Assembly: GCA_016873795.1 (NCBI GenBank)
Contig: VGWA01000012.1
Location: 1-35,647, forward strand
DNA length: 35,647 bases
Direction of reading: 5' to 3'
Origin: Ignavibacteria bacterium
GTDB lineage: Bacteria > Bacteroidota > Ignavibacteria > Tepidaquicellales > Tepidaquicellaceae
In this document: positions 1-22,226 of the stretch, piece after piece
Layout of the letters: each line of letters begins with the position of its first letter
Position numbering within the stretch: position 1 is the stretch's first letter
Notes under the pieces: model-generated
What the model saw: only the letters and a program-made list of their open reading frames with translations
What the model was told of the DNA's origin: nothing
The model's database searches: none
Program-made: the position numbers and the translations under genes

Positions 1-1178
1 TTTAAGAGAAGTTATATATTAGTAGGCATTAACATCCCGAAGAAAAGTTAATCAGACTTTTGTAGTTTTAAAAAAATCCCAGACTACAAACGTCCACCCC
101 CAAACTACAAAAGTCTTAATTACAGCTTCATCAATTTCAGTTAAGTTATATATTTCAGATATTGATATCTTTATGATTAGTTTTTCAGACTTTTGTAGTT
201 TTCCAAACATCAGACTACAAAAGTCCGACACCAGACTACAAAAGTCTTAGTTGCTGACGAATGATTTATGTGAAGTTATATATTAGTAGGCATTAATATT
301 CCTAAGAATAGTTTTTCAGACTTTTGTAGTTTTAAAGAACCCCCAGACTACAAAAGTCTTAGTTGCCACTGAATAATTTAAGTGAAGTTATATATTAGTG
401 AGATTTAACATCCCGAAGAATATTTTTTCAGACTTTTGTAGTTTTAAAAGCCCCCAGACTACAAAAGTCTTAGTTACTGCCGAATAATTTAAGTGAAGTT
501 ATATATTAGTGAGATTTAACATCCCGAAGAATATTTTTTCAGACTTTTGTAGTTTTAAAAAAATCCCAGACTACAAAAGTCCGTCACCAGACTACAAAAG
601 TCTTAGTTACAGCTTCATCAATTTCAGTTAAGTTATATATTTCAGATATTGATATCTTTATGATTAGTTTTTCAGACTTTTGTAGTTTTCCAAACCCCAG
701 ACTACAAAAGTCTTAGTTGCAGCCGAATAATTTAAGTGAAGTTATATATTAGTAGGCATTAATATTCCGAAGAATAGTTTTTCAGACTTTTGTAGTTTTC
801 CAACCATCAGACTACAAAAGTCTTAGTTGCTGCCGAATGATTTATGTGAAGTTATATATTAGTAGGCATTAATATTCCGAAGAATAGTTTTTCAGACTTT
901 TGTAGTTTTAAGAACCTCCAGACTACAAAAGTCTTAGTTACTTCCGAATAATTTAAGAGAAGTTATATATTAGTAGGCTTTAATTTTCTGAAGAAAAGTT
1001 AATCAGACTTTTGTAGTTTTAAGAACCCCCAGACTACAAAAGTCTTAATTGCAGCCGAATGATTTATGTGAAGTTATATATTAGTGAGATTTAACATCCC
1101 GAAGAAAAGTTAATCAGACTTTTGTAGTTTTAAAAAAATTTTAACATCCTGAAGAAAAGTTTTTCAGACTTTTGTAGT
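1..1178. repeat. Tandem array of REP-like hairpin units next to a RAYT gene
   Basis: No gene is visible here. The stretch is a tandem array built on a 13-bp perfect inverted repeat, AGACTTTTGTAGT and ACTACAAAAGTCT. Hairpins lie at 54-116, 187-247, 318-359, 430-470, 541-603, 674-713, 784-823, 894-934 and 1005-1045. Two left arms without partners follow at 1116-1127 and 1166-1177. Left arms recur every 110-112 bp, or 131-133 bp where the right arm is doubled (84/105, 215/236 and 571/592). Between hairpins is a conserved spacer containing GAAGTTATATATTAG and then CATCCCGAAGAA or ATTCCGAAGAA. The array runs off the left edge of the window and stops at the 3' end of the transposase gene, so it is probably that enzyme's substrate family. 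The spacers are themselves repeats, which excludes CRISPR. Confidence 0.85.
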
Positions 1179-1760
1179 TTAGAAAAGTAATTTTCTGTCT
1201 TCTAATAATGTAGAATAGTATTTATGATATTCCGCAAAATTATTCAAACCCCCAAATAAATTCAGCACTTCTTTTCTTTTTATATTTGTCTTTTTCTCAC
1301 TTATGATACTGTTATAAGAACTGAACTTCCATTCTTTTAATTCATTACAAAGTTTTTTCCTGACTGGATTTCCATGTATATATGGTATTATCCTTATCAG
1401 ATATGATTCGTTGTTTATTAATTTTCTTTTAAATTTGTATTGAAATAAACTTCCTGTTCTGCTGTATCTTTTATTGAAAGCTTTTGAATAACTTATGAAA
1501 AAGTCTCTGAATGCTTTTTCTATTGGTGTGAGTTTTGAAACATATGTATCTGATTTAATTGTTGCGGATTCTGATAATACTCTTACTTTAATCAAAAAAT
1601 GAAAATGTTCCGGCATTAAGCAATAGGCATAGACTTTCACATATTTATTTAAAAAATTGTAGAATCTTTTGAGGAAATAATAATAATTACTTTCTTCTCT
1701 GAATATCAATTCTTTATTATTTCCCCGGTTGTAAATATGGTAATAATATCCTTGTAACAA
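1179..1760 (-). CDS. REP-associated tyrosine transposase (RAYT, Y1/HUH family)
   Basis: A 193-residue Y1 single-strand DNA transposase of the IS200-like, REP-associated branch. The N-terminus has the YHIYNRG motif typical of RAYTs. The metal-binding HUH motif is His52-Phe53-His54 (in MPEHFHFLIKV). RTGSLFQYKFKRK follows at about 101-113, and the likely catalytic Tyr127 lies in PYIHGNPVRKK. Family members nick and join single-stranded REP hairpins. The start is a TTG at 1758-1760: an in-frame stop lies directly upstream, so no longer version exists. The gene begins 12 nt after hldD on the same strand. Its stop codon (1179-1181) lies one base beyond the last hairpin arm of the array. The frame is intact, so the enzyme may be active. 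The family call is secure; that this array is its substrate is inferred from position. Confidence 0.9.
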   Translation of the reverse strand: MLQGYYYHIYNRGNNKELIFREESNYYYFLKRFYNFLNKYVKVYAYCLMPEHFHFLIKVRVLSESATIKSDTYVSKLTPIEKAFRDFFISYSKAFNKRYSRTGSLFQYKFKRKLINNESYLIRIIPYIHGNPVRKKLCNELKEWKFSSYNSIISEKKTNIKRKEVLNLFGGLNNFAEYHKYYSTLLEDRKLLF

Positions 1761-1772
1761 TTAATTTATCTT

Positions 1773-2750
1773 TCAATGTAAGTACGGATTATCTGTATTC
1801 AGGTAGTTTGTTACATAATCCGTAACTGCATCTTCGATGGGTGTTATATTGCTTTTATAGCCGGCATTTCGGAGTTTAGTGGTATCTGCCCGAGTATAGT
1901 CCTGATATTTACCCTTGAGATAATCGGGCATTTCGAAATACTCTATTTGTTCGGGCAGATTCAATGCTTTGAAAATCGGTTTAATAAATGAGTTGAATGT
2001 GTTTGCCGTTCCTGTGCCAACGTTGAAAATACCGTTTACTTTTTTGTTCTCATGAAAAAAGATTGTCATCTCGACTGCATCTTTTATATAAATAAAATCC
2101 CTCTTCTGTTCGCCGTCCCCGTAATCAGAAGAGTAAGAACGGAATAATCTTGCTTTTCCGGTTTCTTTGATTTGATTAAATGCCTTATTTACTACACTCA
2201 GCATATCGCCTTTGTGGTATTCGTTCGGACCGTAAACATTGAAGTATTTAAGCCCGGCTATTTTGTCCAGAAAGCGGTTTTTCCAGGCCCATAAATCAAA
2301 CTGATATTTTGAATATCCGTATGCATTCAAAGGAAAAAGTTTATCGAGTTTTCTCTCGTCGTCCTGATATCCTTTTTTTCCGTTTCCGTAAGTGGCTGCC
2401 GAAGATGCATATATAAATCTGATGCCGTTGGCAACTGAATTAATGCACAATGTTCTTGTGTATTCGTAGTTATTAATGTGCAGATAAGAGACATCGGTTT
2501 CCGTAGTTGAACTGCAGGCGCCCATATGGTATATGTATTTCACCGGATTCTTTACGAGAAAACCTTTATCGATTTTTACCAGAAATTCTTTTTTATCTAT
2601 GAAATCGAGATATTTTAACTGTATGAGATTTTTATATTTCTCGTTTTTTTCGAATTCGTCAACGATGATTATTTTTTCTTTCCCGAGCTGGTTTAATTTC
2701 CAGACTATTGCACTGCCGATGAATCCGGCTCCGCCTGTTACTATTATCAT
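1773..2750 (-). CDS. hldD: ADP-L-glycero-D-manno-heptose 6-epimerase
   Basis: A 325-residue extended short-chain dehydrogenase/reductase. It converts ADP-D-glycero-beta-D-manno-heptose to the L-glycero form, the last step in making the heptose donor for LPS inner core; it is cytosolic and NADP-dependent. The Rossmann motif TGGAGFIG starts at residue 5. GACSSTTETD at 77-86 is the signature that separates HldD from other epimerases. The catalytic dyad is Tyr144 and Lys148 (YGYSK), preceded by ASSAATYG near 115-122. The length matches the family. The start ATG overlaps the stop of the upstream Nudix gene as ATGA, suggesting translational coupling in a polA-nudix-hldD operon. It implies a Gram-negative outer membrane carrying heptose. 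Confidence 0.93.
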   Translation of the reverse strand: MIIVTGGAGFIGSAIVWKLNQLGKEKIIIVDEFEKNEKYKNLIQLKYLDFIDKKEFLVKIDKGFLVKNPVKYIYHMGACSSTTETDVSYLHINNYEYTRTLCINSVANGIRFIYASSAATYGNGKKGYQDDERKLDKLFPLNAYGYSKYQFDLWAWKNRFLDKIAGLKYFNVYGPNEYHKGDMLSVVNKAFNQIKETGKARLFRSYSSDYGDGEQKRDFIYIKDAVEMTIFFHENKKVNGIFNVGTGTANTFNSFIKPIFKALNLPEQIEYFEMPDYLKGKYQDYTRADTTKLRNAGYKSNITPIEDAVTDYVTNYLNTDNPYLH

Positions 2751-3220: not shown

Positions 3221-6052
3221 TCAATGTGCTTCGTACCAGTTGCCGCCCGTGCCGATTTCTATTTCTATCGGAACATCCAGCTTTATTGCGCTTTTCATCT
3301 CTCTCTGAATGATTTTTTTAACTTCATCCAGTTCAGTGATTTTAGCTTCAAAAACAAGCTCGTCATGTACCTGCAGAATCATTTTTGATTCTAACTTCTT
3401 TTTCTGAAAATCGTCGTAAATATTAATCATCGCAATTTTTATCATATCGGCAGCAGAACCCTGTATCGGCATATTTATTGCCGCTCTTTCGTCTTCTGCT
3501 CTTGCGTTTAAATTCTGATTGTTGATTTGAGGCAGGTATCGTCTCCTCCCCATTAATGTCTGCACGTAACCGTTTTCACGGGCGAATTTTTTGGTCTTTT
3601 CCATATAATCTTTTACATTCGGATATTCATTGAAATATTTATCTATGATTGCTTTTGCCTCAGTGTTCTTTATTTCGAGGCGTGTTGCCAGTCCGAATGC
3701 TCCTATCCCGTACATTATTCCGAAATTTACTTCTTTTGCCTTGCGCCTCATATTGGGAGTTATGTCTTTTGAAGATTTGACGTTGAATATTCTCATAGCG
3801 GTCTCGTTGTGTATGTCGTGTCCGCGGCGGAATGCGCTTATCATATTCTCGTCTTTTGAAATGTGTGCCATTATCCTCAGCTCTATCTGAGAATAGTCGG
3901 CTGATAAAATTAAAAATTTATCGTTTTCCGGAACGAACGCTTTACGGATGCTTTTGCCTGCATCTGTCCGAATCGGAATGTTCTGCAAATTCGGATTGTT
4001 GCTTGCTAAACGGCCCGTTGTGGTTGCAACCTGATTGAATGAGGTATGTATGCGTCCGGTGTTCCTGTTGATTGCCTGAAGCAGTCCGTCTATGTATGTG
4101 GATTTCAGTTTAGTCAGCATCCTGTAATCGAGTAGCTTGGATATAATCGGATGTTCAAGACGAAGTTCTTCAAGCACACTTACGTCAGTCGAGTAACCTG
4201 TCTTTGTCTTTTTGGTTGTCGGTAATTTCAGCTTGACGAAAAGTATTTCCGATAATTGTTTGGTCGAATTTATGTTGAATTCCGTTCCTGCAAAATTATA
4301 AATTTTATTTTCAAGGTTGGTTATTAATTTTGTTATTTCTCCGCCCAGATAATTTAATATTTTTTTGTCTGTCTTTACACCGGTGAATTCCATCTCCGCA
4401 AGAACTTTTATCAGCGGAATTTCAATATCGGAACATAATTTATATAAATTTACTTTCTGCAGTTCGTATTTTATACGGTGAAAGAGCTGCAGTGTAATGT
4501 CTGCATCTTCGCAAGCGTAATCTTTTACCGATTCGGGAGGCAGTTCGGTCATGCTTATTTGCTCTTTACCCTTGCCGATTAATTCCTCGATACCGATTGG
4601 TGTGTATGAAAGATATTTTTCAGCAAGGTAATTCATTTTGAATTCACCACCCGGCTCGAGTATGTAAGCTCCTACCATAGTATCAAAAATGATATTCTTG
4701 ATTTCTATACCGTGGTTTTTCATTACGAGGTAATCGAATTTTATGTTTTGTCCGACTTTTTTTACATTGTTGTCTTCGAGTATCGGTTTTACGAGATTTA
4801 AAACCGTTTCGATGTCTATACCGCTCTGCGGCAGTAGTGACTCCGTTCCTGTTCCTTTTAAAGAACCGAACACCGGAACGTAAAAACCGAATGTCTCGCT
4901 GTATGAAAAAGACATTCCTGCAAGTTCACAGTTGAGCGGATCGAGCCCGGAGGTTTCAGTGTCGAATGAAATAAATTCCTCGGCTTTGATTTTATTTACG
5001 AGACGCCTGAGTTCATCTTCGTTCTTAATCAGAAAATAATTGTGCTTTGTGTCTTTTATCGTCTTCAGTTTCTTGAATACGGGAGGAATGTTGACTTTTA
5101 TGTCTTCGGTTTCTTCCTTTTTTCCCAGAATTAATATTTTTATGTCCTCGTCTTGTTCTTTTTTGACCTTGGCAGACTGAAATTTTTTTGCTAAACTTTT
5201 GAATTCGAGTTCTTCGAATAATTTGTATGCTTCTTCGAAATTTGCCGTCTTGAGCCTTAAGTCTTCAAGCGAATAATTGAGAGGAACATCTGTCGATATC
5301 GTTACAAGTTTTCTGGCAAGAAATGCGTCGTCTTTGTATTTGATAAGATTTTCTTTTAATTTCGGTTTTTTGATTTCTTCAATGCTGTTGTAAAGATTTT
5401 CAATTGAACCGTACTTTCTGATTAATTCCGCTGCTGTTACCTCTCCGACTCCTTTTACACCCGGGATATTATCCGATGTGTCCCCCATCAGTCCCAAAAT
5501 TTCTGTTATTTTATCCGGAGTAACTTTGAATTTGTCTTCCACCTTGTGTTCGTCCATTACTTCAACATCGCTTACCCTGCTGCCCGAAAAGGTTTTCGCG
5601 GGTTTGTATATTAAAATATTATTTGATACCAGCTGTGTGAAATCTTTGTCCGGAGTAACCATATAAACTTTTATGTCTTCATTCGATTCTCTCTTTGCTA
5701 TTGTTCCGATTAAATCATCTGCTTCGTATCCGTCAAGTTCAAGTAGTGATATGTTGAATGCTCTTATCAGTTCCTTGACTTTTTCTATCTGCCAGGGCAT
5801 ATCGGTTGGAATTTCCTGCCTTTGTGCCTTATAAAGCGGGTATTCAACATGCCGGAAAGTCGGTTTTTCGGTGTCAAAACATACGGCAAGATACGACGGT
5901 TTTTCGTCTTCTATTATTTTCAGCAGAAAATTAGTAAAACCGTAAACTGCGGATGTATTTTGCTTTTTTGAATTAATCAGTGGACGGGAAATCAATGCAA
6001 AATATGCCCGGTAAATCATCGCCATTGCGTCTATTAAAAATAATTTTTCCAT
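3221..6052 (-). CDS. polA: DNA polymerase I with intact 5'-3' and 3'-5' exonuclease domains
   Basis: A 943-residue family A polymerase for Okazaki-fragment processing and repair gap filling. The N-terminal 5'-3' exonuclease/FEN domain covers about 1-290, with LGLMGDTSDNIPGVKGVG near 186-203. The 3'-5' proofreading domain covers about 335-535 and keeps its acidic residues: Asp364 and Glu366 (FDTET), Asp440 (NIKFD) and the YxxxD motif Tyr512-Asp516. The polymerase domain has motif A DYSQIE at 719-724, motif B RRKAKEVNFGIMYG at 769-782 and motif C VHDE at 895-898. All three activities should work, unlike in the many bacteria whose proofreading site has decayed. AAAGGG just upstream of the ATG serves as the ribosome binding site. 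It is the first gene of the leftward operon, divergent from galE. Confidence 0.97.
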   Translation of the reverse strand: MEKLFLIDAMAMIYRAYFALISRPLINSKKQNTSAVYGFTNFLLKIIEDEKPSYLAVCFDTEKPTFRHVEYPLYKAQRQEIPTDMPWQIEKVKELIRAFNISLLELDGYEADDLIGTIAKRESNEDIKVYMVTPDKDFTQLVSNNILIYKPAKTFSGSRVSDVEVMDEHKVEDKFKVTPDKITEILGLMGDTSDNIPGVKGVGEVTAAELIRKYGSIENLYNSIEEIKKPKLKENLIKYKDDAFLARKLVTISTDVPLNYSLEDLRLKTANFEEAYKLFEELEFKSLAKKFQSAKVKKEQDEDIKILILGKKEETEDIKVNIPPVFKKLKTIKDTKHNYFLIKNEDELRRLVNKIKAEEFISFDTETSGLDPLNCELAGMSFSYSETFGFYVPVFGSLKGTGTESLLPQSGIDIETVLNLVKPILEDNNVKKVGQNIKFDYLVMKNHGIEIKNIIFDTMVGAYILEPGGEFKMNYLAEKYLSYTPIGIEELIGKGKEQISMTELPPESVKDYACEDADITLQLFHRIKYELQKVNLYKLCSDIEIPLIKVLAEMEFTGVKTDKKILNYLGGEITKLITNLENKIYNFAGTEFNINSTKQLSEILFVKLKLPTTKKTKTGYSTDVSVLEELRLEHPIISKLLDYRMLTKLKSTYIDGLLQAINRNTGRIHTSFNQVATTTGRLASNNPNLQNIPIRTDAGKSIRKAFVPENDKFLILSADYSQIELRIMAHISKDENMISAFRRGHDIHNETAMRIFNVKSSKDITPNMRRKAKEVNFGIMYGIGAFGLATRLEIKNTEAKAIIDKYFNEYPNVKDYMEKTKKFARENGYVQTLMGRRRYLPQINNQNLNARAEDERAAINMPIQGSAADMIKIAMINIYDDFQKKKLESKMILQVHDELVFEAKITELDEVKKIIQREMKSAIKLDVPIEIEIGTGGNWYEAH

Positions 6053-19350: not shown

Positions 19351-19988
19351 TCTCTGAAATGTTTTTTTATAATTATTAAATCACCTTCCCGGAATCTTAT
19401 TACGATTTTGTTATTTACCGATTTGTTTAAGGCACCTTCCCTTATACCGAGTTCGAGGGTTTCGTTGTTTAATATGTATTTTAATCCTTTTGTTGTTATA
19501 CCTGCGGCTCTGGGAAACGGAATTAAAGAAATTAAATGCCCCTTCCTGTATTTGAATGATGTTTCATTCCTTATGAAATAAATTTCGTGTTTGTTGTCGT
19601 ATACTCTTACGTTTAATAACTTATAGTATCTTTGTAATATACTGTAGTTGTTTAATGTATGGTCCTGACGTCTGCCTGTCATACCGAAAATTATGATGCC
19701 TCTCAAATTGTTTTCTATGCAGTACATCAGGCATTTTTCCATATCGTTTGTATTCTGGTCTTTGATTTCCATTATTCTCACCCGTTTTTTCCTGTAATAT
19801 TTTAAAGTATTTGGTTTTGCCGAATCCATATCACCTATTATTATGTCGGGTTTTATTCTGTATTCTTTTAACTTATTTGCCGCTCCGTCCGCACAGATTA
19901 TATATTGCTTTTTACGGGATATATTACGGACTATACCGTATTTTGGAATTCTTCCGTTTAAAAAAATTATCGCAGTATTATCTTTCAT
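19347..19988 (-). CDS. thiN: Thiamine pyrophosphokinase
   Basis: A 213-residue kinase that transfers pyrophosphate from ATP to thiamine, giving thiamine diphosphate. Motifs in order: ICADGAANKL (31-40), PDIIIGDMDS (47-56) with the metal-binding Asp pair, DQNTNDMEK (77-85) in place of the usual DQDxTDLEK, and GMTGRRQDHTLNN (102-114) with the conserved RxDH. The C-terminal beta-sandwich is more divergent but of normal length. The gene converges on permease 2 with a 4-nt overlap at the 3' ends, and diverges from the BatA-like gene across 72 nt. No TPP riboswitch is recognisable upstream. Its product is the cofactor of Kgd encoded nearby. Confidence 0.88.
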   Translation of the reverse strand: MKDNTAIIFLNGRIPKYGIVRNISRKKQYIICADGAANKLKEYRIKPDIIIGDMDSAKPNTLKYYRKKRVRIMEIKDQNTNDMEKCLMYCIENNLRGIIIFGMTGRRQDHTLNNYSILQRYYKLLNVRVYDNKHEIYFIRNETSFKYRKGHLISLIPFPRAAGITTKGLKYILNNETLELGIREGALNKSVNNKIVIRFREGDLIIIKKHFRD

Positions 19989-20060: not shown

Positions 20061-22226
20061 ATGACATTTCTTAATCCGTCTATATTATTTGCACTCTTTT
20101 TAGTCGCTGTGCCTGTTATTATACATTTACTGAACCTGAGAAAATTAAGAAAAATCGAGTTCAGTTCGCTTATGCTTCTTAAAGAAATAAAAAAATCAAA
20201 GATAAAAAGAATCAGAATCAAAGAATGGCTGCTGATGGTATTGCGTATGCTGCTTATAATATTTCTCGTGATGTCGTTTTCCAATCCGGTTGTAAAAAAT
20301 ATTAATTTCGATTCCGGTAAATCCATTTCTAAAACCTGTATTATTATCATTGATGACTCGTACAGCATGGAAAGGATTAAGGATTCACTTACGTTATTTG
20401 AAAAAGCAAAAAAAGATGCAATCGATATAACAGGTTACTATGAACCGAACGACAGGGTGTTTGTTGTCCCTTATTCAAAAATTCTGATGAGGAATGAAAG
20501 GAAATATTTTAATTTCGTTGATAATATTTCTGATTCTGTTGATAATCTGAAAATCTCGGACGTCAGTTTTTCTATGCAGGTTGCGATGGATTATGCTGCA
20601 GGTATTATCAGTAAAAATTATTCCTTAATAAACGAAATTTTTATCCTTACGGATAATCAGAAAGGAAATTATTCGGATTTTAAATTTGAAAGTATTTTCC
20701 GGGGAATTGACAGCGAAAATATTTTTTTGTATGTACTTGATTATTCCGCAGACTTTAATAATAATTTATCGCTCGATAATCTGTCTTTTCGGACTAAAAT
20801 ATTTGAAACCGGAAAAAAAGTTAATATTGATGCCGAAATAAAAAATTATTCAGGTGCTCCCGTCAATGATAAATCCGCTATTCTGTATATTGACGGACAG
20901 AAAATATCCGAAAGAAAAATCAGTCTTTACCCGAATGAATACAAAAAAGTAAATTTTGAATTTACTCCCGAAAGAAAGGGCAGAATTTACGGATATATTG
21001 AACTTAAAAGAGATGCGGCGAACGAAGATGTTCTTGTAAATGATAACTGCATTTATTTTACGTTTAATATTCCGGAAAATATTAATGTCGGAATAATAGG
21101 CAGAGATAAAAAATATATCAATTACCTGATTGAATCGGCAGGTTCATTTATGTCACAGGATAATCGCGGAAATCAGACTGTAATTTCTTTGAAAGAATAT
21201 TCTTCGGTTACTGATAATATTTTTAACAATGATATGATAATATTATCAGGTTATACGGGAATCGGAGAAAAAGAATCCGAAATACTGCAGAATTATTATA
21301 ATTCCGGTCTTAACATTTTAATCTTTCCTGCTTTTGAAACAGATTTGATTTCCTGCAATAAATTCCTTTCGGAAATTTCTGATATTGTGCTGACTGGAAA
21401 AATCGGGATAAATGATAATGAAAAAATCAGATTTGATTTCGTTGATTTTTCTCACCCTTTATTTTCCGGAATCTTTGAAAAACACAAGGTCGATAATTTA
21501 AATGATAATTTTCTCGGTAATCTGTTAATTAAATATTATTATAAACTCTCAACACACGGTTCGAGAAACATCATATCGTTTGACGGCGGAAAATTGTTTC
21601 TTGCCGAAACGGTTGGTTCCCCCGGAAAAATATTGATTTTTTCGGTTTCATCATCGCTTGAAATGAGCAACTTCCCTCAAACCGAACTGTTTCCCGTACT
21701 GATTTTCAGAATTATCAACTATCTTTCGGGAAATAATGAACCCCAATCGGATGATTTAATAGGGAAAACAAATTTCATACCGGTTAATAATAAAAAATAT
21801 TTGTACGTGGAAAATCCCGATAAAATAAAATTGCAGTTTGATTATTTATTTGATACTGCTGCTTATAAAGAAAAAACGAAGAATATATTACTTGCAGTAC
21901 CGTTTTCAGAGTATTTCAAAAAACAGGGAATTTATGCAATAAATGATGAAAACAGCAAATTGAATGAATATTTTGCTCTGAATGCAACCAGAAAAGAAAG
22001 TAATCCCGAAGCGTTCGATATGAAAAATTTATCGGAAAACTTCAAAAAGTCTGGTATCAAAACCTTTATCTCTAACGATAAAAACGAAATCAAAAACAGG
22101 GTTTATGAAACCAGAGAAGGTACAGGTTTGTGGAAGATTTTCCTGATTATTGCATTAATTATTTTAATGATAATATATTTTGTCGAAAAAAGAATTGAAA
22201 AGGGAACTGTTGCGGACTTATATTAG
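20061..22226 (+). CDS. BatA-like membrane protein with von Willebrand A domain
   Basis: A 721-residue inner-membrane protein. The N-terminus (about 1-75) is the two-helix BatA N-terminal domain, with FLNPSILFALFLVAVPVIIH and a second segment LLMVLRMLLIIFLVMSF separated by a basic loop. A vWA domain follows with a complete DxSxS MIDAS start, Asp98-Asp99-Ser100-Tyr101-Ser102. Residues about 250-330 look like an Ig-like sandwich, and about 345-560 like a class I amidotransferase/DUF4159-type fold; both are weak guesses. A last transmembrane helix (IFLIIALIILMIIYFVEKR) leaves a short cytoplasmic tail. Bat proteins usually sit with a MoxR ATPase and BatB-E; none is present here. Lone long proteins of this layout are common in Bacteroidota. 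Function unknown. Confidence 0.8.
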   Translation: MTFLNPSILFALFLVAVPVIIHLLNLRKLRKIEFSSLMLLKEIKKSKIKRIRIKEWLLMVLRMLLIIFLVMSFSNPVVKNINFDSGKSISKTCIIIIDDSYSMERIKDSLTLFEKAKKDAIDITGYYEPNDRVFVVPYSKILMRNERKYFNFVDNISDSVDNLKISDVSFSMQVAMDYAAGIISKNYSLINEIFILTDNQKGNYSDFKFESIFRGIDSENIFLYVLDYSADFNNNLSLDNLSFRTKIFETGKKVNIDAEIKNYSGAPVNDKSAILYIDGQKISERKISLYPNEYKKVNFEFTPERKGRIYGYIELKRDAANEDVLVNDNCIYFTFNIPENINVGIIGRDKKYINYLIESAGSFMSQDNRGNQTVISLKEYSSVTDNIFNNDMIILSGYTGIGEKESEILQNYYNSGLNILIFPAFETDLISCNKFLSEISDIVLTGKIGINDNEKIRFDFVDFSHPLFSGIFEKHKVDNLNDNFLGNLLIKYYYKLSTHGSRNIISFDGGKLFLAETVGSPGKILIFSVSSSLEMSNFPQTELFPVLIFRIINYLSGNNEPQSDDLIGKTNFIPVNNKKYLYVENPDKIKLQFDYLFDTAAYKEKTKNILLAVPFSEYFKKQGIYAINDENSKLNEYFALNATRKESNPEAFDMKNLSENFKKSGIKTFISNDKNEIKNRVYETREGTGLWKIFLIIALIILMIIYFVEKRIEKGTVADLY

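Follow-up and report, generated by a model that had tools for sequence, protein, structure and literature searches.

At one end of a contig from an Ignavibacteria draft genome (2.7 Mb in 273 contigs), positions 54-1178 are filled by nine complete hairpins, all sharing one 13-bp stem, together with two single arms, and the final arm ends at 1178, directly abutting the stop codon (1179-1181) of a gene resembling those of the REP-associated tyrosine transposases (RAYTs). The locus raises the question of what the repeated unit is, and whether the neighbouring enzyme, rather than general recombination, has driven its growth into an array. The window, by which we mean the whole stretch of DNA analysed, is the entire 35,647-bp contig (C12), which means that the array is interrupted where the contig stops.

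The array and its repeat unit

Exact AGACTTTTGTAGT arms start at 54, 187, 318, 430, 541, 674, 784, 894, and 1005, each followed by its inverted partner, and the two single arms lie at 1116-1128 and 1166-1178; three more arms, degenerate ones with 1-2 mismatches, start at 83, 214, and 570. The hairpin period is 110-112 nt, lengthening to ~131-133 nt with the insertion of an additional arm, and the array has a G+C content of 30% versus 36.6% in the rest of the window. At its other end the RAYT-like gene starts at 1760, 12 nt from the stop codon (1773) of an hldD-like gene. The original prediction had described this set of hairpins and single arms, a period of about 110 bp, AT-richness, an array running up to the RAYT stop codon, and a 12-nt gap to hldD, and each of these was located as described.

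The same prediction had taken the unit to be a hairpin with a loop, which turned out to have loop and spacer swapped. Writing '<' for ACTACAAAAGTCT and '>' for AGACTTTTGTAGT, the arrays of this genome read <-83..86->-26..37-<-83..86->, with occasional extra arms. The start-to-start distance from '<' to '>' is 83-86 nt in every array, corresponding to a spacer of 70-73 nt, while the joint from '>' to '<' is short (26..37) and variable. Because the arm distance is constant across arrays while the joint varies, the conserved element is a REPIN of ~97 bp ('<N70-73>'; 96 nt as '<N70>') and not the 41-nt hairpin, whose supposed loop is the variable joint between REPINs. The features of the locus are as follows:

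1-66, forward strand: truncated first REPIN (right part of the spacer and right arm 54-66), cut at the contig end and continuing in C37
83-95, forward strand: degenerate extra left arm, 2 mismatches; like arms at 214-226 and 570-582
104-199, forward strand: REPIN 1, left arm-N70-right arm, spacer type b
235-330, forward strand: REPIN 2, spacer type a
347-442, forward strand: REPIN 3
458-553, forward strand: REPIN 4
591-686, forward strand: REPIN 5, spacer type b
701-796, forward strand: REPIN 6
811-906, forward strand: REPIN 7
922-1017, forward strand: REPIN 8
1033-1128, forward strand: REPIN 9
1129-1178, forward strand: half REPIN that has lost its left arm; its right arm (1166-1178) directly abuts the stop codon of the RAYT-like gene
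1179-1760, reverse strand: RAYT-like HUH/Tyr transposase, 193 aa, TTG start
1773-2750, reverse strand: hldD-like neighbour gene (named as in the original prediction), same strand as the RAYT-like gene

Contig C37 ends in 134 nt that recur, with 1 mismatch, at the start of the window, and the array is therefore probably longer than the window shows, carrying on into C37 by ~450 bp for a total of ~1.63 kb and 13 REPINs. The half REPIN at 1129-1178 is found again in C37 at 19416-19478. Within the hldD-like gene we found no arm at up to 4 mismatches except a single 4-mismatch match at 1871. Promoter-like sites were at chance level only, an Rfam scan of the array returned only sub-threshold, microRNA-like chance matches, and most of the few terminator-like matches involved the arms themselves.

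The transposase

The protein has an intact HUH motif (EHFH, residues 51-54) and an intact tyrosine motif (YIHGNP, Y127), in agreement with the prediction of an intact RAYT, and an SS motif is present beside them; the catalytic tyrosine is invariant in 30 relatives. Against the NCBIfam model NF047646 (REP-associated tyrosine transposase) it scored 57.2 bits (E-value 1.7e-15), which is below the 80-bit cut-off; the same model was matched by all 30 aligned relatives, the best with an E-value of 1.5e-34. The match to Pfam Y1_Tnp was weak, and a sequence search of the PDB gave one chance match only. The AlphaFold model (pLDDT 94) had as its closest fold 4er8, the E. coli RAYT with a bound REP hairpin (E-value 1.1e-7, TM 0.71 by target), ahead of the IS200-family transposases. 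A single such gene was found in the source genome. We found no relative in phage records, and plasmid records held distant relatives only, at most ~35% identical among the matches listed.

An arm adjoins the 3' side of the gene, and none is present on the 5' side, where the hldD-like gene is 12 nt away. Judged by these sequence features, the protein is RAYT-like and the locus is not a complete REPtron (two flanking inverted REPs). GTAG-type REPs carry a conserved GTAG/GTGG tag at the hairpin's foot; the tetranucleotide GTAG occurs inside the arm here, the same place being GAAG in the relatives G039 and G053.

Arrays across the genome

Exact copies of the 13-nt arm number 164 in the 2.7-Mb genome compared with 2 for a reversed control, and base composition predicts ~0.1 per strand, so the arms are not a chance occurrence. 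All but three of them (161/164) lie within tandem arrays, and there are almost no scattered single copies. We counted 69 REPIN units, with 65 exact matches to the pattern in the source genome, in seven array types: A (C12 and the end of C37), B (C25), C (C37, 13.2-14.3 kb), D (C56 and C86), E (C77), F (C147), and G (C190). The arrays sit between long open reading frames, and the short frames within array D, which has at least 26 units in 3.2 kb, are the repeat itself translated. Contigs C86 and C56 overlap by 60 nt with 2 mismatches and may join, as C37 and C12 probably do.

It is extremely unlikely that this is something other than a REP system, namely a CRISPR-like array, an IS200/IS605 element with degenerate ends, or an artefact of assembly, even though the repeats have a regular repeat-spacer appearance, the enzyme belongs to the IS200 superfamily, and arrays reach contig ends in C12, C37, C56, C86, and C190. 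A CRISPR array was rejected since the spacers are not unique, being 77-90% alike inside one array, and the orientation of the repeat alternates. An IS200/IS605 insertion sequence was rejected since the gene occurs as a single copy, not as several near-identical full copies, and its predicted fold is nearer to a RAYT than to IS200 transposases. As for assembly, arrays B, C, E, and F lie complete inside contigs (C25, C37 at 13.2 kb, C77, and C147), so a contig-end artefact does not apply to these four.

Spacers of 70-73 nt differ in sequence between arrays, and most are unrelated. The arms are asymmetric, one side mostly extending to the 15-nt palindrome AGACTACAAAAGTCT, and when spacers were compared in the orientation predicted by this asymmetry, kinship appeared between arrays A and F (z 7.2) and between C and E (z 10.5); the opposite orientation gave no kinship signal between the spacers of arrays. 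A common ancestor for all spacers was thus partly supported, with B, D, and G not clearly related. Since the related A-F and C-E spacers are on different contigs, we conclude from this kinship that REPINs whose spacers are related have spread to separate loci; dispersal to several loci was mainly as arrays and hardly ever as single copies.

At one end of array G (locus L066 on C190; 481-582 of L066), right arms point the same way and recur every 44 nt, in a register different from that of the REPIN units.

Palindromes beside related transposases

Rarity of such systems outside Gammaproteobacteria, which the original prediction had implied, was not supported: Bacteroidetes genes with palindromes have been described (PMC6006769), and RAYT relatives were present in 81 of 391 genomes of the class at E-values of 1e-25 or less. 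The RAYT genes of G031 (protein 53% identical to that of the window) and of the Chloroflexota MAG loci L068 and L070 (about 52-55%) are flanked on each side by AGACTACAAAAGTCT-3 nt-AGACTTTTGTAGTCT, exactly or nearly so, and the same palindrome was seen on the 5' side at L072, L074, and L076, the chosen RAYT frames of L074 and L076 containing stops. The genome of L070 (G393) holds 56 arms and that of L072 (G395) holds 38, against 0 in controls; these are scattered, mostly as compact doublets. The one-letter variant ACTTCAAAAGTCT adjoins the RAYTs of G039 and G053. Another genome in the same order as the source genome carries the palindrome of the Chloroflexota loci both next to its RAYT relative and at other sites. 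In some relatives REPINs occur singly, with either this arm or its one-letter variant and with spacers of 50-61 nt, which in a by-eye comparison look mutually unrelated. The long-spacer REPIN pattern itself was found in none of the other 390 genomes of the class. The prediction of a lineage-specific system therefore stands for the long-spacer REPIN; its reading of the locus as a REP/RAYT system is supported by the single RAYT-like gene, the 164 arms, the palindrome at relatives in another phylum, and the fold nearest to 4er8. The one-sidedness of the array is right for this locus, where the 5' arm is absent, and is not supported as a property of the system, since many relatives, among them G031, G039, L068, and L070, have flanking palindromes on two sides.

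We assigned palindrome types by eye from the flanks of 33 RAYTs and placed them on a tree of the proteins; the labels required 10 changes versus 20.6 when shuffled (0 of 200 shuffles as low), which argues that palindrome type follows the RAYT tree. As the original prediction expected, relatives of the RAYT often adjoin such palindromes. Among 40 RAYT loci from the class, the window included, hairpins with stems of at least 9 bp occurred upstream at 26, downstream at 27, and on both sides at 21, compared with 1.5, 1.2, and 0.1, respectively, for composition-shuffled flanks. Both results speak against an incidental adjacency of RAYT and array, with the arms being sites for another DNA-binding protein or element, a reading we consider very unlikely. 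In its favour, G036, G038, and G042 (all drafts) have 6-12 arms of either variant, and no RAYT relative was found in them at E-values of 1e-5 or less. Arms without a detected RAYT in these three genomes weaken the link between gene and arm without breaking it, and REPs may there outlive a lost RAYT. Repeats without a detected RAYT, which the prediction had not expected, were found as arms in these genomes; long-spacer arrays were found only in the source genome, together with its RAYT.

Several further observations concern other RAYT loci. L054 (G010, contig C100), from the same family, has a different RAYT lineage and GC-richer CGTTCCCAATC palindromes, with REP tandem arrays on both sides of the gene (~782-1478 and 2183-2542, periods ~55-95 nt), so RAYT-abutting arrays recur in the same family. 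At L071 a REP-like arm (5194-5222) lies inside the RAYT frame (5001-5579), with weaker examples at L072 (5184) and L076 (5182); these intragenic arms of the Chloroflexota relatives sit between the HUH and Tyr motifs, where the sequence is variable, and REP-like arms within RAYT genes have been described for subclass 2.4 (PMC6006769). In the RAYT flanks of many relatives from the class (among L092-L112 and L034-L049) each arm is itself near-palindromic, e.g., AACCTTGTCAAGGTT and AAAGATGACATCTTT, and the REPs there are therefore nested double palindromes of lineage-specific sequence.

Arm conservation and array turnover

Reading arms at fixed offsets from the spacer cores that located the units (84 arms in four arrays), we found 2 mismatches in 1092 sites, while 3-11% of sites in the spacer cores differ from the consensus. 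Such conservation of the arms suggests that the arrays may still be amplifying, as the original prediction had proposed. Across the 26 units of array D, identity did not drop with distance, remaining at 0.89 for lags 1-12; because identity does not fall with lag, this array is well mixed and not freshly copied from neighbour to neighbour.

Taken with the flanks of the relatives, this is probably a RAYT (TnpAREP) system with non-autonomous REPINs of ~97 bp, each with two identical inverted 13-nt arms 70-73 nt apart. TnpAREP enzymes nick single-stranded REPs and join ends (PMC8266576). In such a system, the RAYT would bind the arms as hairpins in a single-stranded region, nick beside them with its HUH/Tyr site, and excise, copy, or rejoin the segment between them; moved or copied '<N71>' segments would have seeded several loci, and at each of these a REPIN with its short joint would have multiplied in tandem by RAYT nick-primed repair synthesis, strand slippage, or unequal recombination. 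The arrays would be homogenised within themselves, and copies with damaged arms would not be propagated, leaving the arms exact while the spacers drift. Binding and nicking of the arms by the RAYT are inferred, as is its role, in place of general recombination, as the driver of tandem growth. In favour of the reading are the single RAYT and its 164 arms, the constant arm distance and near-exact arms, spacer kinship between some distant arrays, the palindromes at RAYT relatives and their agreement with the tree, the hairpin-rich flanks, and the predicted fold. Against it stand the absent 5' REP, the NCBIfam score under the cut-off, the arms in relatives with no detected RAYT, and the lack of a lag effect in array D, where recent neighbour copies made by the RAYT are thus not visible. 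A narrower version can be offered tentatively, that a REPIN population has turned into satellites policed by the RAYT, with nearly all copies in long tandem arrays; by copying only units whose perfect arms are about eight helical turns apart, the RAYT would itself drive array growth and keep the arms exact, the spacers being free to diverge.

In the main alternative, growth and homogenisation of REPIN-seeded satellites would be due to host recombination or slippage only, with the RAYT no longer involved and the arms kept exact because they serve the host (as sites for gyrase or some other protein, in transcription termination, or in mRNA stability); we regard this as unlikely. The well-mixed units, with no lag effect in array D, are what gene conversion would give, the arrays are confined to few loci with almost no single copies, and in an E. 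coli mutation-accumulation line five copies disappeared from a tandem REPIN cluster in a single step (PMC8049555). Against this alternative, the RAYT is intact with its 3' end touching an arm, and the arms match those beside RAYT relatives in another phylum, a match that host-specific use would not predict.

Comparison with known systems

The RAYT system proposed here resembles that of P. fluorescens SBW25 in having inverted REPs at fixed spacing and ordered tandem clusters including their flanks, with a cluster beside each RAYT (PMC3116915); in SBW25, 71 bp is the commonest inter-REP spacing of group I, the largest REPIN cluster is four, and tandem REP arrays reach up to 12 (PMC3116915). The REPINs of SBW25 are mostly dispersed, however, whereas here nearly all of them form arrays, one of at least 26 units, with AT-rich arms. 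Tandem REPs of alternating orientation, some directly beside a RAYT, are also known from the BIME-2 elements and rayT (yafM) of E. coli, and one third of the RAYTs covered by the same source are directly associated with BIMEs (PMC2817692). In E. coli, GTAG-tagged Y/Z palindromes are on both sides of the gene, in contrast to the AT-rich arms, locus-specific 70-73-nt spacers, and 3' side only of the present locus.

By its motifs, the window RAYT resembles TnpAREP subclass 2.6 (RAYT group 5), a placement by motif only, the reference sequences lying outside our tree. That group is mostly from Bacteroidetes, has the motifs NH[LIV]H, YIH[QN]NP, and SS, and has genes flanked by "atypical secondary structures" (PMC6006769); the likeness extends to the HUH, YIHxNP, and SS motifs, the atypical flanking palindromes, and their copies in the genome (PMC6006769). 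It differs in that E, not N, precedes the HUH motif here, and in an HUH-Tyr distance of ~75 aa versus a median of 82. TIRtrons (TIRYT) likewise pair RAYT-like genes with inverted repeats of a non-GTAG type (double-palindromic TIRs), which are partly self-complementary and can make up families in dimers or clusters; as far as the available part of that source goes, the families are moderately abundant and arrays like those of the window are not described (PMC3733652). A literature search judged by title gave nothing relevant on palindromic repeats with transposases in Ignavibacteria.

The REP/RAYT kind of system, shorter tandem REPIN clusters, and Bacteroidetes RAYTs with atypical palindromes are thus already known. 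What looks new is a matter of degree, i.e., at least 26 units in 3.2 kb and almost no scattered copies, and the system is distinct in form: its arms are AT-rich, its spacers are specific to each locus and of constant length, and its RAYT lacks a 5' REP. The source genome cleanly separates the parts that matter for REPIN copying by RAYTs and for the origin of tandem REPIN/BIME arrays, namely a single RAYT, an exact 13-nt arm, constant spacing, freely varying spacers, and arrays of up to 3 kb. Relatives in which the same arm occurs as compact doublets with a 3-nt loop allow testing of which feature (arm, spacing, or loop) the enzyme reads, and the same setup allows testing of whether the RAYT makes arrays. 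A RAYT lineage with the same palindrome is hereby documented in MAGs of both Bacteroidota and Chloroflexota.

Elsewhere in the window, a 21-bp tandem repeat of two copies (20503-20546) lies within a 721-aa open reading frame (20061-22226).
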